Source of the DNA: Spiroplasma endosymbiont of Cantharis nigra
GTDB lineage: Bacteria; Bacillota_I; Bacilli_A; Mycoplasmatales; Mycoplasmataceae
Length of the DNA stretch: 64,000 bases
Reading direction: 5' to 3'
Assembly (NCBI RefSeq): GCF_964019925.1
Contig: NZ_OZ026470.1
Span: 248,001 to 312,000, forward strand
In this document: positions 28,840 to 54,113 of the stretch, in pieces
Numbering within the stretch: position 1 is the first letter of the stretch
Layout of the letters: every line of letters starts with the position of its first letter
Notes under the pieces: generated by a model
Seen by the model: only the letters and a program-made list of their open reading frames with translations
Databases searched by the model: none
What the model was told of the DNA's origin: nothing
Translations under genes and position numbers: made by a program

Positions 28840-28840
28840 A

Positions 28841-30222: not shown

Positions 30223-30287
30223 ACTTTTTAGGCCTAAAACTTTAAACTTTTATGTCTTTTTTATGTTTTTTTTGCTAGTATATAAGT

Positions 30288-30414: not shown

Positions 30415-31686
30415 ATGAAAAAATTACTAATAACTTGTTCAAATTGTAATCAAGAAATTGATTTAATGCAATTAGAAACTAGAGATAGTGAAAGTATCAA
30501 TGAGTTTAAAAAACACTTAGAAGAAGAGTTAACAAAAGCAATTGAAACTCAAATTACACAAAGACTGCAAAAAACTTACAGTCTTGAACTAGATTCTTAT
30601 AAAAAAGATTTGGAACTTCAAAATGAAAAAAACATTTCTGCTTTAAAAAACAATATTGATACATTAAATACAAGTATTGAAACTATTAAACTTAATAATC
30701 AAAGAGATTTAAAGGAATTAGAAGCAAATTTAAAAGCGAAATTCTTGGAAGAAAAACAAGTTGAAGTTACAGCTTTAATGAACAAAATTCAAAAATTGGA
30801 AGCTGAAGCAAATTCTTTAGATCAACTACATGAACAAAAAGTGGAAAAACTAAAATTAGAATTAGAAAGTAACTTTAATTTGCAAAGAGCACAATGAGAA
30901 GCTAAAACAAATCAAGCTCTTTTGGAACTGCAAAAAATTGAAAGTGAAAACAAATTAATTTTAAATCAAAAAGAGCTGGAGCTTAAAACAAAATATGAAG
31001 AAATTATTTCTTTAAAAGAAAAAGAAATAACTGATTTAAAAGTTGCTAATGCAACAAATAGAATTTTAAACAATAAAACAAAAGGTGAAAATTGAGAGAA
31101 TGAAGTAGAGTTAGAATTAAGAAAATTAGCTTCTTTAACAGGAGATGAAATAAATAAAATTACACGAACAGGTACTAAAGCTGACTTTTTACAAATAGTA
31201 AGAGAGAAGGAATTAGATCTTGGAAAAATAGTTTTTGAGTGTAAAAATGGTGAATGAAAAGATAGTTGAGAGCCAAAATTAACAGAAGATATGGCAAAGG
31301 AAGGTGCTAACTATGCTGTACTTGTTGCAACAAGTACAAATGAAAAATTTAAAGTGCCATTTTTAGTTTCACAAAAAAATAAAAATATTTTAATTGCAGA
31401 TCCTGATAGTTTTGTATTTGTGTCTTCAATGGTAAGGAAATTAATTTTAATTGAATCAAATTTAAGAGGCAAATCTGATAATAATGAAGCTTTTGATAAA
31501 TTTAATTCATGAAAACTTAAATCCTTTGAAACATTTAAAGGCATTATACAAAAGTCAATTGAAGGAATTGAAGCTAATGAAAGAACAATTGTAAATAAAG
31601 TTGAAGATATCAAAAAAAATCGTGAAAAATTATGAAGAAATTGACAGACATTAATGCTAGATTTCTTAGAAGGGTTTAATATATAA
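30415..31686 (+). CDS. DUF2130 family protein
   Basis: 423 residues. A short N-terminal Cys pair (CSNCNQEIDL) resembles a zinc-binding knob. A long coiled coil follows, from about residue 25 to 225. The C-terminal domain has the DUF2130 hallmarks, including GENWENEVELELRKL, TGTKADFLQIV, KIVFECKNGEWKDSW and EGANYAVLVAT. The E/D...ECK pattern is that of a PD-(D/E)XK nuclease fold, to which the family has been assigned. The role in bacteria is not settled. The stop overlaps the next start (TAATG), so it is coupled to the HNH/ABC-type trio that follows. Confidence 0.82.
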
Positions 31687-32576
31687 TGACTAACAATAGA
31701 GAAAATGAATTTTCTGAAAAAACAAAAAAGGAAATATACAAAAATGCAGAGAGCGTTTGCACCATTTGTATTAAACCAGTAATTATTGGATCATTAAAGA
31801 ATGACTCAAATAAAGATTTCTTTGAAAAAACTTATTACTCTTTTGGCGAAATTGCTCATATAATACCTGCATCTAAAAAAGAAGGCGAACCAAGAAATGA
31901 ATTTAGAGAGGAGTTTATTATAAAATACGGTGAAGATGCACTTAAAACTGAAATAAACGGATTATTAGTTTGTCAATCTTGCCATAAAATAATTGATAAA
32001 AACTTTCCTAAGGACTATTCTATGGAAAAATTAATGGAACTTAAAAAAACTTTGAATTATAGAATTTCAATTAAAAGTGATATGGATTGAATATTTAATC
32101 AGCAATTAGTTTATGCACTAATTTCAAAGTTGGAAATTGAGATCCATATGGGCGACGAACCTTATGAGACTTTAGAATATTACGAAAAAATGAAATTAAA
32201 TCACTTTGATATAGATATTGAAATATTTATAAATATCTCAATTAAAAATTTATTGACAAATGACTATAAAAAATTTAGAGAACTATTTGAGAATACTGAT
32301 AATGATTTTCAAAAAATAAGAGAGTTCTTTAAAAAAAATTATAAATATCACTGTGAAAATATAAAAGATACTGATAAAAGTGAGAAAAATAAAAAAGTAT
32401 TAATAGCAATATTTGAGGATTTTAAAAGTTTAATCATTAGGGACTTTAAAAAAGAATATAAGTTTATAAAGATAAATGATGCTGAGATACCAACTGATAG
32501 AATAAAATATTATTTATTAAAAATTATATGAATAATATTTGTGGAGTGTGATATATTTGAAACTAAAAAAGATTAA
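31686..32576 (+). CDS. HNH-nuclease component of an ABC-three-component-like system
   Basis: 296 residues, start overlapping the DUF2130 stop. The first ~135 residues are an HNH domain: CTIC near residue 25, EIAHIIPAS near 60 as the catalytic His-containing strand, and CQSCHKI near 97 completing a Cys4 zinc site. The remaining ~160 residues are helical and charged without a recognised family. It is followed by a small overlapping gene and a DUF2326-like ATPase, the order known for ABC-3C defence systems, where the first protein is the variable effector. The effector here would cut DNA. Confidence 0.75.
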
Positions 32577-32787
32577 AATTATTGGAATACTACCTAATAA
32601 AAATATAGATATAAAAAATAGTTTTCTTTACTTTATTTATTATATTAAAAAAAATAAAAGGATTAACTTAAAAAATTTTTCACTTACAAATAAAACAAAA
32701 CATTTTTTATGTTTAGCTTATTATTTGAATTTTATAGACTACATTAGAGAGGATGAAAATGAAGTATGTATTATATCAAAAATATAA
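32557..32787 (+). CDS. Small middle component of the ABC-three-component-like system
   Basis: About 76 residues if it starts at TTG 32557, ten bases after GGAG; in-frame TTG 32539 and GTG 32548 are alternatives. It overlaps the end of the HNH gene and, by 22 bases, the start of the ATPase gene, so the three are translationally linked. It is basic at the N-terminus with a hydrophobic/helical core (KTKHFLCLAYYLNFIDYI) that could be a winged-helix, as in ABC-3C middle components of this size. The assignment rests mostly on position and length. Confidence 0.6.
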   Translation: MKLKKIKIIGILPNKNIDIKNSFLYFIYYIKKNKRINLKNFSLTNKTKHFLCLAYYLNFIDYIREDENEVCIISKI

Positions 32788-34310
32788 AATCAAATTTTTC
32801 TGATTTAACTAATTTTTATTTTTCAAAGAGTTTAACAATAATTGCTTCAGGAAATTTTAATGATGATTCTAATGATGATTCTAATGATTCAGGAAAATCA
32901 ACTTTCTTTAATGTAATTGCATTATTATTAGGACGTGGAGAGAACAATAAAGTTAAAGTACTAACTTTAATAAAAGAAATAAATGAGCAAAAAAATAAAA
33001 TGGATCTAAATGATATTTACTTTCAAATAACTTTTAAAAATGATAGTACTAATATTGAAAGAATCTTTAAATTATACCTATTCTCAGAATTAAATTATAT
33101 TGATGGACAACTTGTTGAGTATAAGAAATATAAGAAAGAAATAAGTAATTTATATAACCTTAAAAATGATATATTGCTAGGTACTTTTTCAATTAGAAAC
33201 TTGGATGAGGATAAATATACTGTTTTTGAAAATTATAAAATAACAAAAAATGAAACAAAAGATTCTATTATTAGGAGTATTTTTGAATATGACAAAGTAT
33301 TATTTGATAGTAGTATCGCATTAGAGATTACAAATTTAGATATTCAGCTGAAAGTATTAGAAAAGAAGATTAAAATTAGTGAATTAAATAAGTTAAATAA
33401 GGAGTTAAAAAGTACTAATGAAAAGTATAATGAAGTTTATAATAATGAAGTTTATATAAATAATTTAGAAATGATTAATGAAATTATTTATCTAAAAAAT
33501 TATAAAAAAAGTCTCAAAAAAAATTTTGATACTAATACATTTGATGCTCTTTTAAAAGAATATGATACTTATTTTCTAAAAAAAAGTAGTTTAAAAAAAA
33601 TGGAAAGTGTAAAAAATTTTTTTAATATTATGAATTTAAATATTGAAAAATTTAAAATGAATAGTACAGAAATTGGGACTAGAGTTTCTGAATTAGAAAA
33701 AAATATTGAAAAAAACAAAATAGAATTAAAGAAAATAGGTTTAGTAAAAGATATTGAAGATAAGGCAATAATTGATACAAAAATTTTTCTAATAAGTAAA
33801 GAACTAGAGAAAATAGAAACTTTAGAAATTAAAAAAAATAATTTAAAGAACTCGCTTAATATTATGGAGAATTTTTCAATTAATTCTCTTATGAAAAAAT
33901 TTATTGATGAGTCATTAAAAAACTGAAAAATATTTTTTAAATATTCAATTAATAGAAATTTGAAAATTAATTTTAATTCTAAAAAAGGACTAATAAACTA
34001 TTCCATTAAAGCAGAAGCCCTAGAAACTAATAATCAGGCTTTTACAGGTAGAGGGAAGAGTCAAATAATTACAATTTTTTTAAAAGCTACTTTACTTGAA
34101 AGTACGGGTTTAAAAGTACCTTTAATAATAGAATCAGATATATTAGATAGCATAGATATTGAATATAAAAGAATATTATTTTCATATCTTAATCAGTTAA
34201 GCATTCAGACAATTATTTTCTATAGAAATCTTGAAAAAGAATTTTTAAACTATAAACTAAATAATAGAATATTAACGAGAGAAAATCCATTCTTGGGCTT
34301 TGCAATATAA
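32766..34310 (+). CDS. DUF2326-like ABC/SMC-type ATPase
   Basis: 514 residues with TGA Trp near residue 387. It begins MYYIKNIKSNFSDL, like DUF2326 proteins, and reaches a P-loop ending NDSGKST near residue 45. A coiled-coil middle of about 250 residues follows, then GRGKSQIITIFLKATLL and LIIESDILDSID, the signature- and Walker-B-like parts of this family, and IQTIIFYRN near the end. DUF2326 ATPases are the sensor/motor of ABC-3C systems. The P-loop is odd: it is lengthened by a 12-bp tandem repeat that encodes DDSN units and displaces the usual first Gly. Confidence 0.72.
32859..32890 (+). repeat. 12-bp tandem repeat inside a P-loop
   Basis: AATGATGATTCT occurs twice in a row (32859-32870 and 32871-32882), then partially (AATGATTC). 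It encodes NDDS units just before DSGKST of the ATPase. Copy-number change would keep the frame but resize the nucleotide-binding loop. Confidence 0.8.
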
Positions 34311-34439
34311 AATAAAAGAGATATACATTGTTAATAAAAAAAATTCTTATAGTAGACAAAAAGATAAAAAAAAAAAAAAAATCTTGTATATAAGACAAAT
34401 ATAATTTTTAAATTATACAAAATCTTTTTATAAAATAAA

Positions 34440-34960
34440 GCAAAGAATAGACAACCTTAAAGAGACTTGCACTTGATTTTAAATCAACTGTAAATAGTCT
34501 CTTTTTTATTATAAATATAATCTTGAAGATTATTTCTTTCTAAAATGAATTCTTTAAACTTAGTTCTAAAATTCCCCAATGAATTAAAATAATTTCTATA
34601 ATCTTTGAAGAAAATATATTTGTTTCATCCTTTTAAATACTCAGTAGCAAAATTGTGTTTAAATCCAACATCAGATATTGACAATGTAAGATTATTTCCT
34701 TCATCAAATAATTTTTAACAGTAAAAGAAGTATTGCAGTTCCTTTATTTGTTTGAATGATTGATTGCTCTACTAAATTAGCTTTGACAATTCTTTGAACT
34801 TGTGATAAACATTGTAAAACCTGTATTATTTTCTGAACTCTGAAAATAAAAATCTATTCTTTGTCTAATATTTATGGAGATACTTGCTTGTTTCTCATAA
34901 ATCATATAAATGTTTAAAAAAAATCTAAGATTTATTAGACTCAATTATGTGATATTATTT
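34440..34960 (-). pseudogene. Transposase remnant (IS3-type)
   Basis: Read on the minus strand this 500-base stretch is a broken copy of the transposase end also seen at 61990-62330. Shared pieces encode a DVGFKHNFATEYLKGWN block and FFKDYxNxFxSxxNFxTKF, in several frames with stops. The plus-strand left end has the AGAATAGACAACCTTAAAGAGACT arm of the palindromic element, then pairing AAAGAGACT...AGTCTCTTT and a T run. It fills the 740-base gap between the ABC-3C-like trio and the helicase operon. Confidence 0.65.
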
Positions 34961-34974
34961 TAAGAGTTAGAGAT

Positions 34975-35015
34975 ATTTATTTATTTTAAATTAACTTACT
35001 TTAAAATAAATAAAT
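34975..35015. promoter_or_regulatory. 16-bp inverted repeat ahead of the helicase operon
   Basis: ATTTATTTATTTTAAA and its exact reverse complement flank a 9-base spacer, 35 bases before the helicase start. It could be an operator or a transcript hairpin. The core TTTAAAATAA also appears in the palindrome at 22847. Confidence 0.5.
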
Positions 35016-35049
35016 TGCTTTAAAAACTTCTAAGGAGAAAATATAATTT

Positions 35050-38000
35050 ATGAATCTGCAATTTAAAATTTCGGAGAAAGAGTCAAATTTTGAAGAACTT
35101 AAACTTGAATTAGGTATTAAAAATTTTAATAAAAATAACATTACTTTATGTAGAGATATGGTTATTTCAAAAATTAAAAAAGTATTAGATTTAAGTTTTG
35201 AAACTGAAGAATTTATACTTACTAAATTTTTTGAATTATTAAATGAAAATAGTTTAATGGAGTTAATGTATTTAAACTTATCAACTTTTGATAATAATAT
35301 TAGTAAAGATAAAGCTAATAACTCAACTCTTAGAAATTTACATGCCTTTGAAAATAAATTAAAAGATTTGAAAGAAAATAATGGCACATTGATAACTGGA
35401 TTGGCCTTTATTTTTAAGTTTGATAAAAAAATTAATAAGAAATTTAATTTACTAAAAAACTCAATTATTATTTATGCAGATTTTTGCTATGAAAAAGAGG
35501 CAGATAATTCAGATACAAAACTTTGATTTGATATAACAAGGGTTGAGTCTATGGAGTTTAGTTATGAATCTGTTGATTCATTAAATATTAAAACAATAAC
35601 TAATTTAATTGATAGTGTAGAATTTCTTGAAAAAAATGAAATAGATATTTTAAAGCTATATGAAAATAAAGAAGACTTTTTTAACTTATTTAGATCCGTT
35701 TCAAGATCTGAAATTCTTACTGGAAAATCTGAAGAAGGTCTAAATTTAAGAGGTTGACATGACTTTATTATTGATTTTAAAAGATATTTAAGAGACAAAA
35801 AAAAGGTGTCTTCCCAAGCAAAACTTTTTTCACTTAAAGATTTTTCTTTAGAAGAAAACACAAATGCAAAAGAGAATTTGATATTAATGATTGATAGTAA
35901 GACAAAAATTTCAGAGGGAAAGTATAAAATTATCTCAAGTGAAAGAGATGATATAAAAACAACTACTTCAATAAAATCTTTATCAGGCTTTGATATAAAT
36001 GAATATATTAATCAACAAATTACTATTTTTAATGAAAAAATTACTCTAAATCTAGAGAAAATAAAATTAGATGAAACAAAAATTAACAAATTATTAGATG
36101 AAAAACGAGAATACACAATAACTTTAAGAGAATATGAAAAAAACTTAGATGGTGAACAAAGCAATAATAAAAGAGCCGTTGAAGAGGAACAAAAATTAAA
36201 AAAAGAAATATTAAATGTGGAAAAAAATATAGATATTTTTGAAAAAAGTAATAAAAAAAATAAAAAAATAAAAAAAGATAAAACATCTGATAATTTAAAA
36301 AATAATCAAGTTATTAAGGAATTGAAACAAGATTTACAGATTTTTAAAGAAAATTTAAAAAATATAAGTTTGTATTTAAAAAAAACAGTAGACCAATTAA
36401 AACTACATAATGAAGAAATAAATAAAAATAAAAATAAAATAGGTTTATTAGACGATAAATTAAATAAATTAAATGGTTCAAAGGAAGAATTAAACGAAGA
36501 TATTTTAAGTTTTGAAAAAGAAATTAGTGACTATAATAATTTAAAAAGTAATATTGAATTATCAACTGCTAGTTTTAAAAAAGTATCTTTAAAAACTGAC
36601 CCAAGAGATGACGAAGAAAAAATAATAAATTTTAATGAAATTGAATTATCATCTTTATTAAAAAATGATTATAAGGGAAAACAAATTTGATATTTATCAG
36701 ATTTTGATCAGGGTTTGTTAACTAAAATAAATAGGTATCATTCAGCAATTGTAATGCTGGAGAAAGGTATATACAGAAATCCGTATCTTGCAACTTCATT
36801 AGAATATCCTGAATTGATTAGAGTAAATAAATTCCCAGTTATTGATTTAGATAATATAAATTTAAACTTAAATTCTAAACAATATGAAGCATTGGAAATG
36901 GCTTTAACTTCGAACTCTTTAAGTTATTTACAAGGTCCACCAGGAACTGGAAAAACTCAAACAATTGCTGCAATAACTTATCTTAGTTGTAAAAAAAATG
37001 AAAACACTTTAATTACTTCATTTTCTCATGAAGCAATAAATAATGCCTTTGATAGACTTAAAGACTTTTTTAAAATCGATCCCAATATTATTTTTTACAA
37101 AAATACTTATATTAGAGATAAAGAAGAAGAATTGAGTAGTGAAGGATATGACTACAAGCATATGTATCAAAATTTTTTATACTCAATTGATAACTTTATA
37201 CTAAAAGATTTTGATAATCAAGATAATGATGAATTTGATTCATTTTCTGAACAATATAATTTTTCTAAGGGAGAAATAAATTTTGTTCCTACTTTTTTAA
37301 TGCAAATGATAAAAAATCAAGAATATGACAAATATAATTTAAAAAATTATAAGTGAATTTATTCAGAATCAATGGCAAAAAACTTAGAAGAAGAAATAAA
37401 AGAAGCTATTACATATGGTGGTTCAAAAGAAGAAGTTTTAGATAGTAAAACTATAATTCTAGAAAGAAAATATGAAAAAGAAATAAAAAATTACATTACT
37501 CTGGATAAACAAATATCTAAGTTTATTGAAAAGTATGGTAATTTTAAATCAGATGAAATTGTTTCAATTGATAAAATCATTGAAACGATAATAAAAAAAG
37601 TAAATATTAATTCTGAAAAAACTTATATAAACAAGATAAGAAATCTAAATAAAAATTTGAAAAATAGAGTTAATAATAGCACTCTTAATAAAAATGAAGT
37701 TGAAACTTTTGCATTAACAGCATTAAATAAAGAATTAATAAATGTTATAGGTATCACTACAACAGGTAAGCAAAGCATAACCTATTTAAATGAAACAAGA
37801 GATTTGTTTATTGAATATCCAGTTAACTTTGAAATAATTGATGAAGTATCTAAATCAACTACAATTGAAATTTTGAATACTGCTTTATTAGCTGATAAAA
37901 TTATGTTGGCAGGTGACTATAGACAATTACCTCCTAATTTATCTGATATAGATGAGAGTACTTTGAAAAAATATTTTCAATGAAAAACAAAAAAAGATGC

Positions 38001-38934
38001 AGATGACAAGACAAATGAAAGTGAATTTAAAATATTTAGAACTAAAATAGAAAAGTTATTTTTATTTCCCTTGTTTAAAAATCATGCGCAAAAGTTAAAA
38101 GGTATTGGAGATAAAGCTGCATATAAGTTCTTAAATATTCAACATAGATTTAATGAAGAAATTATGGATATAGTTAATTTTGTCTATGATGAAGAAGAAA
38201 AATTACAATTACCAAGTACTAAAAGAAATGAAATAATAGTTAAATTAAATTATGATAAAACATATAGTAATGCTGTAAATATTTTAGATACGTCTTACAT
38301 AAGCGAAAAGTTTGTCAAATATGTTAAAGAAAATTCAAAATACAGTCAAACATTAAATATTTTTCAAGGTCAGGTTTCTTTTGATCAGAAAATTTCTTTA
38401 TTTAATAACAGATCACTTGGATCAGCATTTAATGAGTACAATGCTTATTGCATTGTTGAACTAATAAAAAAAATAAAAGAAGACGTGTTAATTAATCCCA
38501 ATCAAATTGGAATTATTGCTGTAACTAAATCACAAAAAATTATTATTAGAGATATGTTAAGAGAGAGCATTAAGGATAATAATTATTTAAGTCAGATTAA
38601 AATAGATACGGTAGACAATTTTCAAGGAAGAGAAAAAGACATAATAATAGTTGATCTTGTAAGAGGTAAGCAACTGCTTACTGTAGATAGAATAATTAGA
38701 GATTTTAAATCAAGAAATATTGATTTTTATAAGTCAATTGAAAGATTAAATGTAGCCGTTTCAAGAGCAAGACACAAATTAATAATAGTTGGAGCTGTCG
38801 AAGATTATTTTAGAAGTGAAGTAAAACCACTAATTGATAATGAAAAAGGTGAACAAACACCTTTAAATATATTTGATTTGTGATTTGAAAAAGTAGAAGA
38901 TAATGAGGGTGTAATTAGAACATGAAAAATATAA
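35050..38934 (+). CDS. UPF1-like superfamily 1 helicase with coiled-coil insert
   Basis: 1294 residues, start after AAGGAGAAA. The N-terminal ~330 residues are unrecognised and followed by a charged coiled coil to ~530. The helicase core then has QGPPGTGKTQT (motif I, ~631), EIIDEVSKST (II, ~929), AGDYRQLPP (III, ~954), FQGREKDIIIV (V) and RLNVAVSRARHKLIIVG (VI, ~1232). These place it in the UPF1/DNA2-like SF1B group, which moves 5' to 3' on DNA or RNA. A further helical insert lies between motifs I and II. The last 13 bases overlap the next gene. Solitary helicases of this build occur in several defence systems, but this gene set matches none I can name. Confidence 0.85.
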
Positions 38935-40316
38935 TAAAAGTAAATATAAATATCCCTTATTTTTTACAAGAAATTGAAGTTAATGTTGCTTCATTAAAAC
39001 AATTAAATGATTTTAACTCAAGATTTTGCTTACTTTTGGCTTATAAAAACGAGTTAGAGGATTTACCTCCAATTATAGAATTGCAAGATTTTTTTAAGAA
39101 ATATTTTAATTTAGATTCAAAAATGCATATATTTATTGAAGACTCTTTTAAAGAGATATTTAAATCAAAAACAATAACTTTTAAATTTAATAATTATGAA
39201 GATATTAAAAATATTTGAGAGATAAATTTTAATGAATTAGTTTTAAATAAAAAGATAAAAGAAAAAATAAAAAATGAAGAGTATTTTTCCTTAACAGAAA
39301 ATCTACAAAAAAGAAAAAAAATATTTTTAAGTGAAATATTAAATAATAAAAGTCCAAAAGAGGTTGAATCAAAAATTGGTTATGAGAAAATTGAAAATAA
39401 TAATGAAACTTTAGACTCTCAAGTTAATAGATATTTAGATCAAAATTATTATGAGACACTAGGTGAGGCCAATGTTAAAATAGATCATTTATCACAAGAG
39501 ATTCAATCAATAGAATTATTAGATAGTTATTTAACTTATATAGATAAGGAACATGAATTCATTGTTGATGAATCCAAAAATTTATTAGCTAAAAATAGAA
39601 GAACTGAAAAATTAATTGAGCATATTAAAATTGGATTAATTGAAAAAGAAGACTTAAAAGAAACCATTAAGAAAAAATATAATTTAACTTTAAAGGAAAA
39701 TAACTTTAAAGAGAAACTAAACTCAGAAGTAATTTATCCAGAATATGATAACTATGAAATTTACTTAGAAAATATTTTAGAAGAAAATATTGGTATTGAA
39801 AGTGATCTTTGCCTTTATGAAAATAATATCTACTTAGTTAATCCTTATAAAGATAAATTGTTTATTCCAGATTTAAAAGAAGAAATTGAATTAACTAGTT
39901 TCTTTATTCAAAAATTTGAAACTAAGTACTTTAAATTCATTGATTTGCAATTAGTTAAAAATGAAAAACTTATTAAAATATTATTAGAGTGATTTGAAAG
40001 TAAAGAAGACTATACTAATTTAGAAATTAATTTTATTAAAAATAATATTAATTTAATTTCTATTAGTGAAGTGTGAACTGAAAAGCTTATCAAATACATT
40101 TTAGAAGATGATGAAATAAAAGAAATGGTTCATACTAATTCAATAGAATTAAACGAAAATGTAATTGAATTAATTACAAAGAATACTGACATTTCATATG
40201 AAGAGTTGTATCTAATTAAAAAATGAGAATATAAAAATAAGCAAATTTTTAGTAATTGAAATAAGGAAATAAATTTCTGAAAATTAATAAAAATGAAAGA
40301 ACAATTTGATGTATAA
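38922..40316 (+). CDS. Unrecognised large protein of the helicase operon, N-terminal part
   Basis: 464 codons from an ATG overlapping the helicase end to an in-frame TAA at 40314. Reading continues in the same frame for another 134 codons after that TAA, to 40721, in similar style, so the original gene was probably about 600 codons. It is rich in Glu/Lys/Asn/Ile and mostly helical, with Trp encoded by TGA (e.g. KLIKILLEWFESKEDYTN), and no known domain was found. Overlap with the helicase and 3' neighbours points to a structural or adaptor subunit. The TAA may be a nonsense mutation or a sequencing error. Confidence 0.6.
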
Positions 40317-40721
40317 CCAAAAGAAAATTTTACACTAGATGGTTTAAATCTTTTAAAAAATGAAGTAGAAAATATTGAAATATCACCAATTAAAGATATA
40401 AGAATTGATAATTTTTATAAAGAATTAAATAAACAAATTGAAGCGAATAAAATGCCCATTGAAGATAAATTTACAGTTAGAATTGTTAATTTGAGAAAAA
40501 AATTTGAAGATAAAATAGGTGTTACAAAGAAAAAAAGTTTCTCTAAACAGTTGAGTTCTAATTATGAAGAAGATGATACATATTCATTTTATAAGAATAG
40601 TTACAAATTTTTATCAGAGCATGTGCATGGAAGAAAAGAACTTCAAAATGAAGAAAACTTAAAAGAATTAGACCATATTGAAAGAACTATAGACTTAGTT
40701 AATTTAAAAAAGAAAGTATAG
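40317..40721 (+). pseudogene. C-terminal part of the split helicase-operon protein
   Basis: Same frame as the previous gene, open from just after the TAA to TAG. If translated separately, the first ATG is at 40452 (90 residues, starting MPIEDKFTV), but it has no ribosome-binding site. It ends with a Lys-rich stretch including FLSEHVHGRKELQN. It is more likely the tail of one ~600-residue protein interrupted by a stop than an independent gene. Confidence 0.55.
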
Positions 40722-40731
40722 GAGAAAATTT

Positions 40732-41757
40732 ATGAGTCATAATGCATCAATAACATTTGATATATGTAATAAAGATGAACTATTAGCATTATCACAAGTT
40801 AAAAAAGAAATTGCAGATTTAGAAAAGTTTGCACAGAAAAATAATTTTACAGATATTTTTAGTAAAGAAATTGAAAATATCTATACTCAATTAAATGAAT
40901 CAAATCTACGAATTGAAAAAATTGGTGGTTCTCATACAATTAGCAGTGAATTTTATATAATAAATCAAGAAAAAAATAAACAAATTGAAGCTTATTATTT
41001 AGAATTAGACAATATTATAAAAAAAGTTCAAAATATTAAATATACTTTAAACTTAGAAAATGAATTAGTTAATTTTATTAATCTGGAAAAAAATAAAATA
41101 GCGGAATTAATTAGTCAAAATGGATTTATAGCAAATCAAGCTATTAAAAATTTATTTGCCAATAATTCTGAAATAACTTACAATACAGTCAATAAAGAAA
41201 TAGAGAAAATTAGATTTAGAGAGTTTGATCAAGCAAATGCAAAGTTGTATAAAGAAAGCTTAAAGAAAGAACTAAATAATCTAGGTATTGAAAAAGAATT
41301 TAAAATTAAGTTATACTCTGATTTGGAAAAAATTCAAACTAATATTGAAATTATGGATTTCTCTGCATTAATAAAATCAATAGAATCAAACTTTTTCAAA
41401 ACGACTCTCCTTGTAAAAGATGTAGAAGAGGAATTAAAGAAAATTGGTTTTAAAACTTTGATTAAGAAATATACAGTTCTTAAAAGTTCAAATGATGATG
41501 TAGCTGATCAGTTTGTAATTTCTTTAAAAACCATTAATAATAAAAATAATAACATAGTAATTAATTTTGGTTTAAATGGAACAATGGATTATAAAATGGG
41601 TAACTATGTTGATCACTTATGTGATGCAGATGCAGAAAAGTTTATTACTGGATTACAAAACAAACAGAGATTTATTGCAACTCAAAAAATTACAAGAACT
41701 TCTACTACATCAAGACCAATTCAAAGAGCTAAAAAAATGAAAGTAAGAGAAAAATAA
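40732..41757 (+). CDS. Unrecognised coiled-coil protein of the helicase operon
   Basis: 341 residues, start after GGAGAAAA, 10 bases behind the previous stop. Residues ~15-235 are helical and charged; ~240-310 look like a small alpha/beta domain (VVINFGLNGTMDYKMGN style). The last 20 residues are strongly basic (TSRPIQRAKKMKVREK), which would suit nucleic-acid contact. No family recognised. One base separates its stop from the next start, so it is tightly coupled to the Clp-like protein and may be its adaptor or substrate-recognition partner. Confidence 0.6.
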   Translation: MSHNASITFDICNKDELLALSQVKKEIADLEKFAQKNNFTDIFSKEIENIYTQLNESNLRIEKIGGSHTISSEFYIINQEKNKQIEAYYLELDNIIKKVQNIKYTLNLENELVNFINLEKNKIAELISQNGFIANQAIKNLFANNSEITYNTVNKEIEKIRFREFDQANAKLYKESLKKELNNLGIEKEFKIKLYSDLEKIQTNIEIMDFSALIKSIESNFFKTTLLVKDVEEELKKIGFKTLIKKYTVLKSSNDDVADQFVISLKTINNKNNNIVINFGLNGTMDYKMGNYVDHLCDADAEKFITGLQNKQRFIATQKITRTSTTSRPIQRAKKMKVREK

Positions 41758-41758
41758 A

Positions 41759-43561
41759 ATGAAAAAATCAATTGAGCAATTAAAAGTTAAAATACAACAA
41801 AAAAATTTACTTTTAATTGGAGGAAATGTATATGATACTTTTTTGGAAAATGATCAAGATTCTAAAAAACAGTTTTGTAATTTAGATAATAAAATTATTC
41901 AAATTGCAAAAGAGATTGGTTATAAGGATGTTATTAAATTTTCACCATCAAAAGGAAAAATGTTTCTTTTGGGAGAACAAGAAATATTAGAAGAAGATAA
42001 TGAATTTGATGAATTTGAAAGTCATAGTATTAAACAAGTATTAGAAGAATTTATTAATGATTTAAAAAATGAAATTCAAGATAAAGATTTAAATAGAAAA
42101 ATTTATATTATAGATTTTTCTGATACCTTATTAAATCAAGAAAGTATCAAAGATTTAGTAGAACAAGCAGCTATTTTATTATCAACTATATTAGAAGATG
42201 ATGTAAAAAATCAATATGATATTATTAACATAAATAAATTAAGTAAAGTAATTTTTATTAGCAGAGATACAGGAAATATTGCAAGTGATTTTAGTACAAA
42301 AAATATAGAATTTGCTTCTGTTAATATTAATAAACCTAATAAAAATGAAAGAGCAGAAATATTTAATAAATTTTATCGTTCATTTAACGTAATTGATAGA
42401 GAAAAACTTAATACAGATTCAAAAGAACATAATGAAGCTGTTGGATTAACAGAAGGCTTTGCTGTAAAAGAAATTATGCAACTGGCAAGAATACAAACAG
42501 AAGATGATAATTATACTTTTAAAGAATTATTCTCATTAGCTCAATTTAATAAAAGAGATTCAGAATGAGAAAAGATGGACTTGAAACAATTAAATACTTC
42601 TGATGATATTTTAAATAAAGTAGTAAAAGGTCAAGAATTTGCAATTGCTAATGTTAAACAAACTCTAATAAATGCTAGCTTAGGACTTAATGGTATTATG
42701 CATTCTGAAAAACTTATTAAACCTAAGGGTATTTTATTTTTCTCAGGGCCAACTGGAACTGGTAAGACAGAATTAGCAAAACAAATAGCAAAACTTGTTT
42801 TTGGAGATGAAAATAAGTTAATTAGATTTGATATGAGTGAATATAATCATGAAGAATCTGATCAAAGACTTATAGGAGCCCCTCCAGGTTATATAGGTTA
42901 TGATTCAGGGGGAGAATTAACTAATGCTGTAAAGGAAAATCCTTTCTCTGTCTTATTATTTGATGAAGTTGAAAAAGCTCATGGAAGAATTTTGGATAAA
43001 TTTTTACAAATTCTTGAAGATGGTAGACTTACATCCTCTAAAAATGAACTAATTGATTTTTCTGAAACTTTTATAATTTTTACTTCAAATATAGGAGTAA
43101 TTGGCAATAACTCAAAAGCAAATCAAGACGAAATCAGAAAAAACTTTATTAAAGCTGTTGAAGACCACTTTATAAATGTTTTAAAAAGACCAGAATTATT
43201 AAATAGAATTGGAAAGAAAAATATAATTCCTTTCAATTACATTACAAGTAGAAAAATTTTTAAAGAGATAATTGAAAGTAAATTAATAAAATTAATAAGT
43301 GCTTTAAATAAAAAGCATAATGTAAAAATTTCATATAGTGAAGATGAATTAGAAAATCTTGTAGATCTTATTATGCAAGAAAAGGCAATTGAAGAAATGG
43401 GTGGAAGAGGAATTATTAACTCTTTATCTGAAAAAGTTATTAACTCATTGGCCTTATTTATTTTTGAAATGAAACTAAATAATAAATTAAGTGAGAAAGA
43501 TATTACTCACGTAAAGATGAAAGTAATAGTAAATAAGGAAAAAGTTGTATTTGAGTTATAA
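41759..43561 (+). CDS. Clp/Hsp100-like AAA+ ATPase with a degenerate first module
   Basis: 600 residues through one TGA Trp. The C-terminal module is a full ClpA/ClpB-D2-type AAA+: GPTGTGKTELAKQIA (Walker A, ~330), RFDMSEYNHEES, GAPPGYIGYDSGGEL (pore loop), VLLFDEVEKAH (Walker B, ~400), IIFTSNIG (sensor 1), RPELLNRIG (Arg finger) and GGRGI (sensor 2). The first ~270 residues keep an AAA-like shape (IYIIDFSDTLL, KVIFISRD) but have no Walker A. They lack the Clp N-domain, so it is not a housekeeping ClpB. It probably remodels or unfolds a partner of the helicase complex. Confidence 0.8.
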
Positions 43562-43705
43562 ATATTAAGAAGATTTAGTATAAATATTTTTTTATTACAA
43601 TAATTAATTTTCTTAAAAAAGTGTAGTGTAACCTTTTTTCAGACACATTTTAAAAATACTTTATATATTGATATAAAGTATTTGTGAACGAAGAGAGGTT
43701 TTAAT

Positions 43706-44002
43706 TTGACTAAGTATTCAATAAATCAAAAAATTGAATTAGTATTAAATTTTTATAAATCCAATTTGTTATTAGCACAGTATTCAAAAGCAGTAGTAAT
43801 TGATAAATCAAGATTGAAAAACTGAATAAAAATTTATGACGAAAATGGAAGAAGTGGATTTAAAAAGTCCTTTAAAGCCAATAATGAGAAGATTATAAAT
43901 TTAAAAAAAGACCTTAAAAAATCAAAAAGAGAGAATGAAGATTTAAAATTAAGAGATGAAATGTTTAAAGAATTAAGAGAAATGATTGATAGAAAGAAGT
44001 AA
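43706..44002 (+). CDS. IS3-type OrfA
   Basis: 98 residues from TTG after AGAGAGG. N-terminal helix-turn-helix (KYSINQKIELVLNFYKSN then LLLAQYSKAVVIDKSRLKNW), then a charged leucine-zipper-like region (KRENEDLKLRDEMFKELREM). This is the DNA-binding first product of IS3 elements. OrfB lies in the -1 frame from its end, as usual where frameshifting makes the fused transposase. Confidence 0.75.
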
Positions 44003-44846
44003 ATAAGTGAAAGTTAAGCACATTTAAATCAAAAGTAGTTTATAATTTTACAATTAAATACCCAAATATTGCAATTAGAAGACTTTGTAGACTAATTGTT
44101 TTAGCAAAAAGTATTTACTATGATTGAATATCAAAAGGTAAACCAAAAATTAAGGCTATTAATTGGGCTTTGGTTTTGAATATTAATGATGTTTATAAAA
44201 ATGAAGTTAAAATCTATTGATCTAGAAGAATATTGAAGTATTTAGATTTAAATTGTAGTCATAAAAAAGTTCTGCTAATAATGAAGTTTCTAAAGTTAAA
44301 ACCTAACAACTATAAAATACAAAAGAATAAATTAGGTAATCCAGAAAAAATTGGTAAGTATCCTAGATTATTTAAATATCAAACAAATTTGAAAAATTAT
44401 GGAGATAATTTCTCTGTAGATATTACAGAGAAAATAATAGCAGGATGCAAACTATACACTTGCGCCTTTTATCATGTAAACACTAAAAAAGTTTATGGTT
44501 TGGTAACTAAAAATATTAAAGGTATGAAATTAGTATTAGAGTCATTTTTTAATATGGTTAATGAATTTGGAACATTTAAGCCAAACTCAATTATTCACTC
44601 TGATAATGGATCAGAATTTAAATCTTATCAATATCGCTTAGCTACAATGTGATTTGTTTTTGGCTTAAGTATGTCTAGAATTGGTAGATCAACGTACAAT
44701 GGATATATTGAAGGTTTTGAAGTGCTTTTAAAAGAGAAGCAATTAAGGAGTATTATAAATACAATGTTGTAAATGAATATATTTATAATTTGAAAATGTA
44801 TCAATATTTTTATAATAATAATAATAGATTTAGTTATAAAATATAG
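43990..44846 (+). pseudogene. IS3-type OrfB transposase, frameshifted
   Basis: In the -1 frame relative to OrfA the sequence gives an IS3 transposase: VVYNFTIKYPNIAIRRLCRL, YYDWISKGKP, a core with FSVDITEK (first Asp), SIIHSDNGSEFKSYQY (second Asp) and NGYIEGF (Glu). Right after EGF a one-base slip near 44715 changes frame; the other frame continues with LKREAIKEYYKYNVVNEYI to the stop. The catalytic DDE is present but the C-terminus is lost, so it is probably inactive. Confidence 0.75.
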
Positions 44847-44960
44847 GTGTCCGAAAAAAAGGAACAGTACAACTCATACTATTACTTATAATTATAATAA
44901 ATTGACTATTTTTTATATTCTTATATAATTTATTATATATGTATTAAAATAAGGGGAAAT

Positions 44961-46136
44961 ATGAAAACTGATCTAGATATATGTAAATCAAGAAATTTAA
45001 AAACTTTAGCCGTAGTTATGTTTAATATTGTTAAGGAAGATAAGGAATTTTTTTATATAGGTAGTAACTATAAAAAAAGCAAGCACTCAAAATACAAAGT
45101 GGAAGATTTTTATTTAGAAAATAATAAACTTCTTGTGAAAGAAACAAGATTGCCATTCTTATTGAAAAATGGAAGATATATACATGAAGCAAAAATTAAA
45201 AAAACAATTTATAATAATTATGATGATTTTATAAATATTTTATATAAAAATATTTTGAAAGAAAGATATAAGTATTCTGATAATGAATATGAAAGCATTA
45301 TTTTTTCTTCATATTTTTCTTTAAGGGGTTCTATAGATATTTCAGTTAAATATATATCAATAGATTTTTTTAGAAAATTTGAGACTCCAAATTCTTTTGA
45401 TAAGATTTTTAAATTATTAACATGTATTAGTGATTTAAGACAATTAAACTTAAATTTTAGATATTTACAAAGTCAATATCTAAAAGGAAAAACAAGAAAT
45501 GATCAAATTAGAGTTAATTTAAAATATTTTTATGATAATTATTTAGAAGATTTAGAAAAATTAAATAAATATAAGGCTCTTTTATTAAAAGAAAATGGTA
45601 ATTTAATTAATTCTATGAATTATGTAAAAAAAATTAATATAGATATATACAAAAGAAAAAACTTTTATATTAATAATTATGTAGCAAATAATAATTATTT
45701 TGATTTTGAAGATATTCAAAATCAAAGACAAGAAATCTTTGGAATTGAGGAAAAGGACTCAAAGGGAAGGAATTATAGCATTGTAAATTATGCAAGAAAT
45801 TACTTAGAAGATATATGTTTTGGATGTTATAATGATTTTAATATTAAAGTAAGATCTTTTAAAAGAAAAGGTTCTGATTCTTACTATTTGGAAATTCATC
45901 ATGTATTAGCTTTTGCAAATAATGAAAAATTTGATCATATAGATAATCTAGTTAAGTTATGTCCTACATGTCACAAAGCTCTTACTCCAAATAGAGCTGA
46001 AGAAAATTTACAGAAGAAAATAATTTTATCAATTATAAACATTGCTGATTGAACTAGGAAATTTATTTATGAATTTCTTGAAGATGAAGTAGGTGAAGCT
46101 GAATTAGTTAATTTTATTTTTGAAAAACTTAAATAA
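44961..46136 (+). CDS. HNH endonuclease
   Basis: 391 residues, start after AAGGGGAAA with TATAAT-like boxes ~30 bases upstream. The N-terminal ~280 residues are unrecognised, helical and basic, probably for DNA recognition. The HNH domain lies near 290-350: CFGCYNDF, then YLEIHHVLAFANNEKFDHIDN (His-His and Asn), then LCPTCHKALTP. The Cys pairs and HH...N...H order match HNH enzymes of the McrA/type II restriction kind. It is followed 66 bases later by a double methyltransferase, so it may be the cutting enzyme of that restriction-modification set. Confidence 0.78.
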
Positions 46137-46202
46137 TATTATATTTTAGTGTATTATAATTATTGTGAGGAATAAAATATAATATCCTCAAAAGGAGTTT
46201 TT

Positions 46203-47984
46203 ATGTTTAAAATTCTCGATCTTTTTTGTGGAGCCGGTGGGTTTTCTTATGGAATAGAATTAAATAAAAATTTTAAAACAGTTGTAGCTTTAGATTTTAA
46301 TAAGTCTGCTAAGGATACTTTTACTAATAATTTTAAAAATGTTAAGGTAATATGTGATGATATTACAAGTGAACATGTAAAATCAAAAATTATTTCTTTA
46401 TCAAAGAGTGAAGGAGTAAATATGGTTATAGGTGGACCTCCATGTCAAGGATTTAGTCTTAAGGGGAAAAAAGCAGGTTTAGAAGATTCTAGAAATTTTC
46501 TATTTTTAGAATACTTTAATATAGTAAAAGAAATAAAACCTGAAGTATTTATAATTGAGAATGTTAAAGCATTAATAAATTCTTGTAATGGATATTTTAT
46601 TGATCAAATCATAAAAAAATTTAAAGAAATAGGATATTTTATTAATTATGGAGTCATGGACTCATCTAAGTTTGGTGTACCCCAAATAAGAGAAAGAACA
46701 ATTATTATAGGATCACTTAGTAAAAAACTTAGCTTGCCAAAAGAATTAGGAAAGAAAAAAATTACTGTAAGAGAAGCAATTTCTGATTTAGAGTTTTTAA
46801 ATTCTGCTGAAGGTAATTTTATATTGGATTATAAAATAAATCCCAAAAGTAGTTACCAAAAGATTATGAGAAAAAACTCATTGAATTTATATAATCACAT
46901 TTCTACAAAGCATAGTGAATTAGCTTTAAAAAAATTAAGTTTTATTCCAGCTGAAGGAGATAAAAGTAGTTTACCAATGAATTTAAGGGGAAAACAAAAG
47001 TTTCATACAACTTGATCAAGACTTATTTGAGATAAACCAAGTCCAACAATTGATACAAGATTTGATACACCTTCTAATGGAAGAAATTCTCACCCAATTT
47101 TAAATAGAGCAATTACTCCTAGGGAAGCTGCAAGATTACAAAGTTTTCCAGATACTTTTATCTTTTATGGAAATAAAACGGAGATCTGTAAACAAATAGG
47201 AAATGCAGTGCCCCCGTTAATGGCTAAATGTATTGCTGATTCTTTGATATCTCAATATAATTTTGAAAAAGTGGAAAGTGATTTTATAAAAATTTATAAT
47301 GAAGATGCATATGTATATATTGAAAAACTAAAAAAAGATAATATAAGGCCAAATCATATAATTACTGATCCACCATACAATATATCTACTGATAATAATT
47401 TTGATACTTTAAGAAAACCTAGGGTTGGATTAAAATTTGGCGATTGAGATACTAATTTTAATTTATATGGATGAATACCTAAGTATATTGAAATACTTGA
47501 TAAAAATGGAAGTATTATAATTTTTTGTTCTTATAGATTTATTAGTTATATAATTGAGGTTTTAGAAAAAAATAATGCAGTTGTAAAAGATGTTATAAAA
47601 TGAAAAAAAACAAATCCTATGCCGAGAAACATTGATAGAAGATATGTTCAGGATACTGAATTTGCAGTATGAGCAGTAAAAAAAAGTTCAAAATGAGTTT
47701 TTAATAGAAAAATAGATTCAAAATATCTGAGAGCAGAGTTTCAATCTTCAGTAGTTTCAGGTAAAGAAAAAACATTGCATCCAACTCAAAAAAGTCTTAA
47801 AATTTTAGAAGAAATTATTGAAATACATACAAATGAAGGTGATTTAATAATTGATCCTTTTATGGGAAGCGGCACCACAGGCGTTGCTGCAAAAAAATTA
47901 AAAAGAAAGTTTCTTGGGATTGAAATTGAAAATGAGTATTACAAGTTAGCAAAAGATAGAATATTTAAGGAAAATAAGGAGTAA
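46203..47984 (+). CDS. Fused DNA methyltransferase: C5-cytosine plus DPPY-class amino-methyltransferase
   Basis: 593 residues in one frame, start after AAAAGGAG. Residues 1-~340 are a complete m5C enzyme: LDLFCGAGGFSYGI (motif I), GGPPCQGFS (IV, catalytic Cys), FIIENV (VI), QIRERTIIIG (VIII), GNAVPP (X). Residues ~355-593 are a beta-class amino-MTase: ITDPPYNIS first (~390), then LHPTQKS and DPFMGSGTTGVAAKKL last (~550), the order of N6-adenine or N4-cytosine enzymes. No frameshift or stop divides them. Two activities on one chain suit a two-strand-asymmetric recognition site, each half protecting one strand. The restriction partners are probably the neighbours. Confidence 0.88.
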
Positions 47985-47993
47985 TTATTTAAT

Positions 47994-50450
47994 ATGTTTT
48001 TATCGGATAAAGACCATGAAAAACTAAAAAATATTTTTAGAGAGCTAATAAAAAGCTCTAAAGAAATTAATATAATTTCACCTTTTATTACTAAAAATGC
48101 ATTTAATATATTTAAAAATGAATTTAATTCTTTTTTTGATCAAGATGGGTCAATTAAAATATTAACTACAAATTTTGATAAGGATTCCAAAAATTTTAAT
48201 GTGTTAGATCTAAAAGAAATAAAAAATAATAACCCAGAAAATATTGAAATAAGCATTCAGATTATTGACGAATTAAATAAAAATCCTTTGCATATGAAAG
48301 CATATTTATTTAAAAATGATAACAAAACTCAAGCTATTGTTGGTTCTTCAAATTTTACTTTTAAGGGTATGAATCATGGAGAATGAAATTTTTTAATTCA
48401 CGACTCAATAACAATTGAAAAAATACAAAAAAGATTTTATGAAATGATAGATGAACAAGATTATAATTGAGTATCCATTGATGAATTAAATCCTAATGAT
48501 TTTCAAAATCAAAAATTATATTTAAATAAATATAATTTGAAAAAAAGTAGAACTAGTCTAATATTGAGAGATTATCAAAAAGAGATTATCAATTTATTTA
48601 ATAATGAAAAAAATAAAACTAAAAATCATTTGATAGTTTTGCCAACTGGAACTGGAAAAACTATTACTGCTTTATATATGTATAAAAATTTTGTAGAGTC
48701 TAACATCAACAATAGATTACTTTTTGTTGCACATAGAAGAGAAATAATTGAAAATGCATTTATAGTATTTGAAAATGAAAAGCATAGTAATCAATTGATA
48801 TTAAGTAGCAAGGAAGAAATATCTAAACTCTCGAATTTATTTATAACTACTAGTTTATTAAATAATTTAATTGAAAAGGGTTACTTTAAAAAAAATGAAT
48901 TTCAAATTATCATTTTTGATGAAGCACATCATATTAATAATGAATCAGAAGTAAATCAATTTAACAAAATATTTAATTTTTTTGAATCAATAAATAATAT
49001 AGCATTAACAGCAACACCGGAAAGAACAGATGGTTTAAATATTGAAAAAATATTTGGAAGTCCGCTTTATGAAATGAGAATTCATGAGGCCATTAATAAA
49101 GAATTAGTATCTGAATTTAATTATTTTCTTATTAGAGATCAAGATAGTGAAACTATTTTAAAAAATGATTTAAAAAATGATGAAATAATTTATAAAAAAT
49201 TAAATTCAAATAAAAGAAATCTGTTATTACTTGATAGTATTAAAAAATATGTATCTAATGTTGATAATAAGACTGTTGTTTTTTGCATAAATCAGCAACA
49301 TGCAAATGATATAAATAAATTACTAAATAGTAATGGGTACTATAGTGAAGTATTATTAAGTGATACTAATAATAGAAAAAATGTAATTGATAATTTTAAA
49401 AATGGTAGTATAAATTATATTTGTGTTGTTGATATTTTTAATGAGGGTATTGATATTCCTTATATTACGAACTTAATTTTTCTTAGACCTACACAATCAA
49501 AAATTGTTTTTTTACAACAACTTGGAAGAGGTTTAAGAAAAATTGAAAATAAGGTTCTAAATGTTTTGGATATAGTTAATAATATTGATAGAGAGAATTA
49601 CTGATTTGATAAATTATCTTGTTTTTTAACAGAACAAGATATAAAAAATTTAATTGATTTAAAGCTTGAAGATTTAAAAGTAAACATTGTATTTGATAAA
49701 TTATCAAAACAATTAATTCTTGAAAAATTAAAGAAATCATTTAATATGAAAAATGAGATAAAAGAAAAAAGCTATTACAAGTGAATTACTTCAGTTAGTT
49801 ATGATAATAAGAAGGAAGAAAACCTAATCTTTTTGATAAGTAGAAAAAATAATGAAATAGTCTCTATTTATATAATGGAAAGCGGCTTATATAAAAATAT
49901 AAATAGTACATTTTCAAATACAAAATATTTTTCAAATGTAAGAGAATTTGAGGGACTATTAATAAATAATTTAGTATCAAAATTTTCTAATCTTATTTCA
50001 TTAGATAAGGAAATTGATATTAATAATGTTAAATTAAATACAAAGGAATTTATTTATAATTATTTAAGGTTAAAAAAATCTGAAGCAATGAAACTGCAAT
50101 CTGATTTAATTCTTATTAAAAAATTTGAAGATGATAAAATAGCAAGGGTAAAAGTTTTGAAGGATGGCTATATTCTCTTAAAAAATTCATATGTTAAGGC
50201 TTTTGGACGAAAAATTCAAAGCCCTAATATAATAAAACTTTGAAAAAATGATGAGAATTTTATATTTGATAAAAGTGATTTAAATAGATTTAAAGTAACA
50301 TCAAAAGATATTTTTTTTAAAAAAAGCAACTGACTTATTTCATTTTTAATGGGTGGAAATGCTAGTTTTCCTATAGAGTTAAAAATAGAAAACGAAGATA
50401 TAACTGTAAATGAATATTACAAGAAATGAATTAAAAAATATTTAAGTTAA
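47994..50450 (+). CDS. PLD-nuclease/SF2 helicase restriction-type protein
   Basis: 818 residues, starting 9 bases after the methyltransferase. Residues 1-~170 are a phospholipase-D-type nuclease domain with one HxK block (LHMKAYLFKND, then IVGSSNFTFKG); such enzymes work as dimers. Residues ~180-540 are a DEAD-type SF2 helicase: LPTGTGKT (I, ~217), IFDEAHH (II, ~307), ALTATPERTDG (III), FNEGIDIPYI (V), QQLGRGLRK (VI). The last ~280 residues are unassigned, perhaps DNA recognition or a DUF3427-like tail. The order PLD-helicase is known from restriction-like proteins. Position behind a methyltransferase argues for ATP-dependent restriction. Confidence 0.85.
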
Positions 50451-50505
50451 TTAAAAAAAAAAAAAAAACTAAATTTAAAGAGTTATTATATAATTAATAA
50501 AATAG

Positions 50506-50560
50506 AGAATAGATAACTTTAAAGAGACTAATAGTCTCAAAAGAAAGGTTATCTATTCTG
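50506..50560. repeat. Nested palindromic element
   Basis: AGAATAGATAACTTT pairs with AAAGGTTATCTATTCT (one bulged G). Inside it GAGACT-AAT-AGTCTC makes a second perfect hairpin. Diverged copies are at 404-452 and, left arm only, at about 34446. It lies between the PLD-helicase and the SSB-like gene. It has no U tract, so it is more likely a MITE-like relic or IS end than a simple terminator. Confidence 0.6.
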
Positions 50561-50642
50561 TAGTATAAAAAATGTTAATATTATATATTTAAAAAGTATT
50601 AAAATTAATTTATAATATATCTTATTAAGAAAGGTACTTTAT

Positions 50643-50981
50643 ATGAATTTATTTATAGGAATGGGCTCAATTGAAAAAATAAGTGAAATTAAAATATCAA
50701 AAACAGGTAGTAGTTATGTTAATTTTACATTATGAACAAATAAAATTGGCTTATATAAAGAGGATAGAAATGTCATGGTGATATGTCAAGCATTTGATGA
50801 TATGGCATATGAGTTGTGTAAAATAAATGAAAATTTTTTGATTACAGATAATTTTATAGTTTTTGGGAGTGCCACAATAGCAAATAATTTTAAAGGAATA
50901 TCTATTCAAAAAATAGAAAAGATTAATAATGAATCTGAAATAAAAGATTTTTTTGAAAAAAATATATGAAAGATTTTTTAA
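50643..50981 (+). CDS. SSB-like OB-fold protein
   Basis: 112 residues with two TGA Trp codons, start after AAGAAAGG. The pattern GSIEKISEIKISKTGSSYV, FTLWTN, VMVICQAFDDMAYEL, IVFGSAT and GISIQKIEKI matches the strands of a single-stranded-DNA-binding OB fold in order. It is shorter than housekeeping SSB and has no acidic tail. The last 16 bases overlap the next gene. An SSB-like protein built into a motor/nuclease operon might load or protect unwound strands. Confidence 0.6.
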
Positions 50982-51469
50982 ATATAGATGAATTTATAGA
51001 TTTGATTAGAAAAAAGCATTCTCTTTTTGAAATTAACTCCGTTATTAATGAAAAAATTTATAAAAAGGAAATTTTTTTTAAAAACATCAATGAAGTTTAC
51101 TTAAAGAATTATATATTAGAAAAAGATAATATTAAGAATATTAAAAATTTTTTAGAGGAAATTAAAAGTATAGTAAATTATTCTTGTATCTTTTCAAAAA
51201 GCTTTTTAGTTAGTTTTAGAATTAAAATTAGCATTTTTGATCTTTTAATATATCTTCAACTTTATTGTGATTATAACTATGAAATAATAGGTTCTCCAAC
51301 AAATAATAACTTTAAGATTTTATTATATTTTTGCAAATACTCAAAAACAGAAATTATAAAAAAAATATTAAGCTCTTCAAAAACATTTGAACAGAAAAAA
51401 TATTGTCTAATTAGTGAATTAGGATTTAACAAATCTGAAGTAAGAAAGGTATTACAAAATGAAAGATAA
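50966..51469 (+). CDS. Unrecognised protein between SSB-like and Z1 genes
   Basis: 167 residues. Start ATG within the end of the SSB-like gene (16-base overlap), stop overlapping the Z1 gene by 11 bases. Lys/Ile/Asn-rich, mostly helical. The end (CLISELGFNKSEVRKVLQNER) looks like a small helix-turn-helix. No family recognised. Double overlap means it is made together with the OB-fold and Z1 proteins and probably bridges them. Confidence 0.6.
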   Translation: MKDFLNIDEFIDLIRKKHSLFEINSVINEKIYKKEIFFKNINEVYLKNYILEKDNIKNIKNFLEEIKSIVNYSCIFSKSFLVSFRIKISIFDLLIYLQLYCDYNYEIIGSPTNNNFKILLYFCKYSKTEIIKKILSSSKTFEQKKYCLISELGFNKSEVRKVLQNER

Positions 51470-53990: not shown

Positions 53991-54113
53991 AGAACGTATT
54001 ATTTTTTAATAGTCCATAAGTAAAAACTAATGTATAACTATTTTTTTAAAATATTTTTTTATACAATTTAATCTTTATAATTAATTTATTAGTATTTTTT
54101 TAGTGAGGTTAAA

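Follow-up and report, generated by a model that had tools for sequence, protein, structure and literature searches.

Introduction

Among the described defence systems Mokosh comes closest to the operon reported here. It is listed among the systems of unknown mechanism in a 2026 review (PMC12926258), and PLD is given as its domain (PMC10952713). In type I Mokosh the PLD domain belongs to MkoB, the partner of the helicase MkoA, and in type II it is fused to the helicase. We have analysed a stretch of 64,000 nucleotides (hereafter the window; positions 248,001 to 312,000 of contig NZ_OZ026470.1) from the Spiroplasma endosymbiont of Cantharis nigra, a wall-less bacterium whose genome is a single contig of 1.24 Mb in which TGA is read as tryptophan (NCBI table 4, code 4). 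The window contains an operon of four genes coding for a superfamily 1 (SF1) helicase, a second protein that we call the slot-2 protein, a third, coiled-coil protein, and a Clp-like AAA+ protein. An earlier reading of the DNA alone (the original prediction) had suggested these genes as a candidate defence system that could not be matched to a named one.

The operon is real and conserved. On balance, we read it as a Mokosh-like module for nucleic-acid defence in which the nuclease is a different one and a unit for protein remodelling has been added, and it probably acts against invaders. PADLOC, NCBIfam, and paper searches did not reveal any named system with the whole combination. No paper describing the combination was found either, which is weak evidence because most subscription papers and bioRxiv were outside the search, and a keyword check did not find it in PMC7159879, PMC12839542, PMC13092281, and PMC10853773.

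A conserved operon that moves as a unit

Read with code 4, the four genes are packed as closely as originally described, with a 13-base overlap followed by steps of 11 and 2 bases (Table 1). In 50 shuffles of the operon stretch the longest open frame had 130 codons, and chance is therefore excluded as the origin of the four frames. The break in the second gene is present as well: the first part (38922-40316) codes for 464 residues, the TAA is codon 465, and the frame then stays open for another 134 codons up to 40721. The nearest relative (G001, locus L028) encodes an uninterrupted slot-2 protein of 598 residues.

The original prediction had staked itself on the co-occurrence of the four genes in other genomes, and this co-occurrence was found. 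The order helicase, slot-2, coiled coil, and AAA+ is present in at least 30 loci of mollicutes, other Bacilli, and proteobacterial plasmids, and extends to other families of the class that use the standard genetic code. The profile of the third protein matches 68 of the 320 genomes of the order. Related operons frequently contain a fifth gene, which codes for an NrdG-like radical S-adenosylmethionine (SAM) protein. In plasmids of Acinetobacter, Photobacterium, Moellerella, Polaromonas, and Leisingera, the five genes are all present and their order is unchanged, and the plasmids of Moellerella and Leisingera are conjugative. The pairwise distances of the helicase, the third protein, and the AAA+ protein are correlated (Mantel r 0.94), and the AAA+ and helicase trees are congruent for the main clades. 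Thus, the genes of the operon move as a unit. One mollicute with code 4 (G101, L033) has a five-gene copy that is nested among non-mollicute Bacilli in the trees, and its slot-2 and third proteins are about 55-66% identical to the copies of the latter. This copy is likely the result of a transfer between lineages with different genetic codes. Exceptions to the common arrangement are found in genus g8, in which the AAA+ and radical-SAM genes lie apart from the rest (L031, L045), and in G025 (L032), where the coiled-coil gene is absent between the slot-2 and AAA+ genes.

The helicase and the second protein are related to Mokosh

The helicase has the predicted length and all SF1 motifs are intact (GPPGTGKT at residue 629, IIDEVSKS at 929, GDYRQLPP at 955, VDNFQGREKD at 1188, and VAVSRARHK at 1235). 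It matches AAA_11 and AAA_12 of Pfam, and with 2.6e-64 (216 bits) the MkoA model of PADLOC, so that the helicase component of Mokosh is present. MkoA is the best PADLOC match for the helicase in every lineage of the operon (216-320 bits), comprising the window, Bacilli, and plasmid forms as well as the core form, a paralogue described below. Another effector pairing for this helicase family is seen on a Nostoc plasmid (L289, 5188-11936), where a helicase of this kind, located inside a BREX cluster, precedes a DarT-type protein and an ADP-ribosylglycohydrolase.

The slot-2 protein of the window is composed of an MkoB-like N-terminal domain, a long helical middle part, and a C-terminal HEPN-like domain. 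The N-terminal 150-200 residues or so are common to the PIN-containing, the HEPN-containing, and the MkoB-position proteins. A profile of the N-terminus of the plasmid PIN proteins finds slot-2 proteins of Bacilli (7e-10 to 7e-7) and none of 535 decoys, and at 3e-7 also a PLD-like protein adjoining an MkoA-like helicase, thus in the position of MkoB. In hhalign comparisons, the same plasmid N-termini score 93% to a set of three MkoB-position proteins. In addition, the slot-2 protein of Acinetobacter matches the MkoB model of PADLOC at 1.1e-5 over residues 8-191. Within the Bacillota, the matches of the MkoB profile are mostly to its PLD half. The Mokosh-type arrangement itself is present in L288, where a PLD protein comes after a kinase-helicase.

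As C-terminal domain, Mokosh has PLD, proteobacterial plasmids have PIN, and Bacilli and several mollicutes have a HEPN-like domain. A PLD match is absent from the slot-2 proteins of all four forms of the operon (window, core, Bacilli, and plasmid). PIN_4 is matched by three plasmid slot-2 proteins at 1.5e-19 to 7e-24 and by a fourth at 3e-6. DUF4145, which is among the HEPN families (PMC3710099), is matched by the slot-2 protein of L088 with 24.0 bits at a cut-off of 23.1, providing the family with a HEPN profile match, and at E 0.1 or better by 4 of 23 family members. The window fragment alone hits DUF5677 at 0.007, which is below the cut-off. The motif R[ND]xxxH, a form of the catalytic Rx4-6H motif of HEPN proteins, is found at the C-terminus of 8 of 20 relatives, compared to 0.24 expected from shuffles, and in HEPN proteins the residue following the arginine is typically N, D, or H (PMC3710099). 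Because the N-terminus is common while the C-terminal PIN, HEPN, or PLD domain varies, the slot-2 protein is, judged by these sequence comparisons, an MkoB-like adaptor with an interchangeable nuclease.

The same domains might be thought of as the toxin of an abortive system resembling toxin-antitoxin pairs, with the HEPN or PIN toxin held by the helicase or the coiled-coil protein and freed by the AAA+ ring upon infection. Clp-type unfoldases are able to release bound toxins. HEPN and PIN are also typical RNase toxin domains (PMC3710099, PMC13092281). However, a small labile antitoxin is lacking, the nuclease forms part of a protein of 600-820 residues that is paired with a helicase, and the MkoB-like N-terminus is conserved. 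We therefore regard such a toxin system as unlikely.

The AAA+ protein and the coiled-coil protein

The AAA+ protein had been described as lacking the Walker A of its first module and the Clp N-domain, and both descriptions are right. A single Walker A, located in the second ring, is found in each of the 31 members of the family, while the structural model (predicted local distance difference test, pLDDT, of 75 from nine alignment rows) covers both rings of ClpB and ClpC with a Z score of 25. Thus, it is the first module that has lost its Walker A. The alignment to ClpB begins only at ClpB residue ~183, and the N-domain is therefore missing. The motifs of the second ring (D2) are intact, namely GPTGTGKT at residue 330, the pore loop GYIGYDSGG at 377, LLFDEVEK at 399, FTSN at 441, and GGRGI at 548, and the pore loop is conserved as GYxGxxxGG in the family. 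Inspection by eye did not reveal a ClpP-docking loop. In viral contigs and phage records, the only matches were to the Clp-like D2, none of which was examined as this operon, and E. coli genomes gave only clpB or Clp fragments.

The third protein has a C-terminal domain that is conserved in all lineages (LDG...Y..G.Y.G..C..D...L), and it may serve as an adaptor. A resemblance to DUF1257 and DUF2997 was rejected, as there was no Pfam match. A possible connection of the radical-SAM gene to the Y-x-G motif of the third protein is confounded by clade membership (with L046 and L036 as exceptions) and was not used. Sequence searches of the PDB with the slot-2 and third proteins retrieved coiled-coil or chance matches only. 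Of the two proteins that the original prediction had left for profile searches, slot-2 has thus been resolved into an MkoB-like N-terminus and a HEPN or PIN end, but the third protein stays without family match; no already named system emerged as the owner of all four genes.

A variable locus and a recent stop codon

The operon is part of an exchange locus. On both sides (20500-31671 and 54037-57865) the window aligns with the sister genome G009 at 95%, and the intervening sequence has been swapped for a different one in G009, which contains IS-type (insertion sequence) transposases and a D12-like methylase with a partner gene, as identified by eye (Table 1). Together with the operon, the insert of the window comprises a CBASS-effector-like HNH protein, a type II restriction-modification pair, a PLD-helicase protein, and a Z1 protein. 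The four-gene form of the operon is patchy, and methylase or specificity genes are found within 15 kb of 8 of its 22 copies against 3.7 expected (p 0.017) and of none of 20 core copies, the count being a lower bound because several contigs were too short to score, and the expectation being based on approximate genome sizes.

Table 1. Positions of the operon genes, the paralogous operon, and neighbouring features (window coordinates unless a contig is given).
Feature	Position	Strand	Description
SF1 (UPF1/COG1112-type) helicase	35050..38934	+	1294 residues, 7 TGA read as tryptophan; closest named family MkoA (Mokosh)
Slot-2 protein	38922..40721	+	frame of ~600 residues, in-frame TAA at 40314-40316
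Third protein	40732..41757	+	341 residues; MSH start, coiled coil, conserved C-terminal domain
ClpB/ClpA-like AAA+ remodeller	41759..43561	+	600 residues; degenerate first ring, active second ring, no Clp N-domain
IS3-like transposase remnant	43682..44772	+	identified by eye only; at the site where related operons have the radical-SAM gene
Variable exchange locus around the operon	31672..54036		22.4 kb here versus a different 7.7 kb in sister genome G009
Five-gene core operon (L007)	G000:C1:881938-891576		near leuS
HNH protein	31686-32576		similar to HNH parts of CBASS SAVED effectors (PADLOC 4.6e-14); no cyclase visible alongside
Restriction genes	44961-50450		HNH restriction enzyme (REase_II 2.6e-76), fused C5 and N4/N6 methylase, PLD(NgoFVII)-ResIII helicase protein
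Z1-domain protein	51459-53990		MzaC-like; two small genes upstream
Tandem repeat	3592-6270, 8259-10937, 11280-13958		three copies (96-98% DNA identity) of a membrane protein and ABC-type ATPase, between lipoprotein genes

The window-type helicase changes about four times faster than the core helicase: when G000 is compared with G001, its nonsynonymous divergence (dN) is 0.184 and that of the core helicase 0.049, with synonymous divergence (dS) being similar. The dN of the AAA+ proteins is equal in both types (0.045 and 0.046). An arms race fits a faster change of sensor and nuclease without a faster motor, but relaxed constraint could also contribute.

The window copy could also be a dead or dying relic, for which the TAA in the second gene and the IS3-like remnant downstream of the operon could be cited. 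Decay does happen in this family, clearly in G004 and also in L040 and L041. In the window, however, none of the three remaining genes is shortened and their motifs are intact, and the slot-2 frame is similarly constrained after and before the TAA (dN/dS 0.19 and 0.18), which argues that the stop, and inactivation if there is any, is recent. The missing fifth gene is no sign of decay because it is absent from the whole four-gene clade, being present on one side of a fully supported branch of the tree; a loss confined to the window copy is thereby ruled out. We consider a relic a possibility that falls short of even chances. Under the favoured reading of the operon as a Mokosh-like defence module, the window copy is one such system, perhaps recently disabled by the TAA.

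A paralogous core operon

A search of the same genome with the AAA+ protein revealed a paralogue at 38% identity. It belongs to an operon with genes for a helicase of 1285 residues, a slot-2 protein of 757, a coiled-coil protein of 363, an AAA+ protein of 603, and a Fer4_12/radical-SAM protein of 198. This core copy is the main reason to doubt a defence function, and a number of other observations weigh in the same direction. Its AAA+ gene occurs throughout the genus (20 of 20 genomes) and also in many further genomes of the family, from several genera, the complete set of genes having been read in the subset of loci that were fetched. Its genus-wide presence, near leuS in several cases, is what would be expected of a housekeeping operon. 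The core copies do not have the HEPN signature, lacking both the arginine and the histidine, and in the clade of the window the histidine column is retained but the catalytic arginine is lost, so that the window slot-2 protein has both a stop and no catalytic arginine. The single-sequence model of its HEPN fragment is all-helical but poor (pLDDT 56), its fold search list contains no recognised HEPN structure, and the HEPN call in this clade is by family alignment. The hhalign score of the mollicute slot-2 proteins to the PIN and Bacilli set is moderate (75%), as is the enrichment of the four-gene copies near restriction genes. Because such a close paralogous operon is fixed across the genus, the gene set by itself does not indicate defence.

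The operon could accordingly be a housekeeping system of RNA and protein quality control, in which the helicase, an RNase-derived adaptor, and the Clp-like unfoldase dispose of RNA-protein complexes that are stalled or damaged, and the window copy would be a fast-evolving extra paralogue. The dN/dS of 0.05-0.14 of the core copy is consistent with this, and in genus g8 its AAA+ and third genes are retained as a pair even where these are unlinked (L045, L031), while G054 lacks both. However, the four-gene form is patchy and resides in a swap-out locus among restriction genes, its relatives are found on plasmids, some of them conjugative, beside ArdA, integrase, and toxin-antitoxin genes, and the type of nuclease differs between lineages by exchange. 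Housekeeping seems rather unlikely to us. Of the original proposal of a defence system the swap-out locus stands in favour, while the genus-wide core operon and a window copy that may be failing stand against.

A possible mechanism

If the operon is a Mokosh-like defence module, the UPF1/MkoA-like helicase would bind and scan nucleic acid that is foreign or aberrant, RNA being the most likely kind, and would dock the slot-2 protein through its MkoB-like N-terminal domain. The C-terminal RNase domain of the latter, HEPN here and PIN in proteobacteria, would then cut RNA. The coiled-coil protein may deliver the Clp-like AAA+ ring, which combines a single working ATPase ring with a pore for threading, and this could unfold or release one of the subunits of the complex or a phage protein that is attached, by which the nuclease would be switched or reset. 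In the five-gene versions, the NrdG-like radical-SAM enzyme might modify one of the partners.

Comparison with known systems

The AAA+ protein shares with ClpB, ClpA, and ClpC (Hsp100) the two-ring AAA+ fold, the active D2, the pore-loop tyrosine, and a C-terminus weakly similar to the small D2 part of ClpB. It differs by the lack of N-domain, M-domain, and D1 Walker A, by its length, and by being encoded in the operon. PADLOC matches it to DolB of Dodola (3e-15) and to M37B (8.6e-28), both as a Clp-like AAA+ protein. The neighbours in the window do not include a DolA match, so that the partner that characterises Dodola is lacking. The candidate PDC-M37 does not provide an identity either: the M37B model (PDLC04606) also matches Clp proteins of ordinary length (700-870 residues), with matches in 295 genomes of the phylum, and the match is thus generic.

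Full-length relatives of the AAA+ protein (about 363-508 bits) are also found in clusters with FHA, PP2C, kinase, or DUF4011 (Hhe-like) helicase proteins in varying combinations (L108, L109, L112-L114, L270). Mostly, an NrdG-like radical-SAM protein and a coiled-coil protein, 'MSGPK', adjoin the AAA+ gene there, but the helicase is of the kinase-fused DUF4011 type and the other regulators are different. These clusters are possibly a second branch that uses the same AAA+ module. The third protein could not be shown to be homologous to these 'MSGPK' proteins (hhalign 1%). Tentatively, the coiled-coil protein, the AAA+ protein with one active ring, and the NrdG-like radical-SAM protein might be a general, unnamed control module that is placed on at least two helicase-nuclease effectors, the Mokosh-like PIN/HEPN and the kinase-Hhe-like ones, with one copy made a core cellular machine in the genus of the window. 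A Clp-type unfoldase and a radical-SAM enzyme are regular partners of such a helicase, and the core copy would represent a defence-type machine that was perhaps domesticated, or the reverse.

With type I Mokosh the operon has in common the SF1 helicase family of the first gene and the related N-terminal domain of the second. However, the second protein has HEPN or PIN at its end where MkoB has PLD, the helicase does not have a kinase domain, and the coiled-coil protein, the Clp-like AAA+ protein, and often the radical-SAM protein are added. Because neither the PLD of MkoB nor the helicase-PLD fusion of type II is present, the operon is, by its domain composition, related to Mokosh but not a member of Mokosh proper. 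The claim that it matches no named system therefore holds for the whole combination but not for the helicase and the slot-2 N-terminus, which are relatives of MkoA and MkoB. Through the exchange of domains Mokosh becomes linked to domains that cut RNA, and its target thereby becomes testable.

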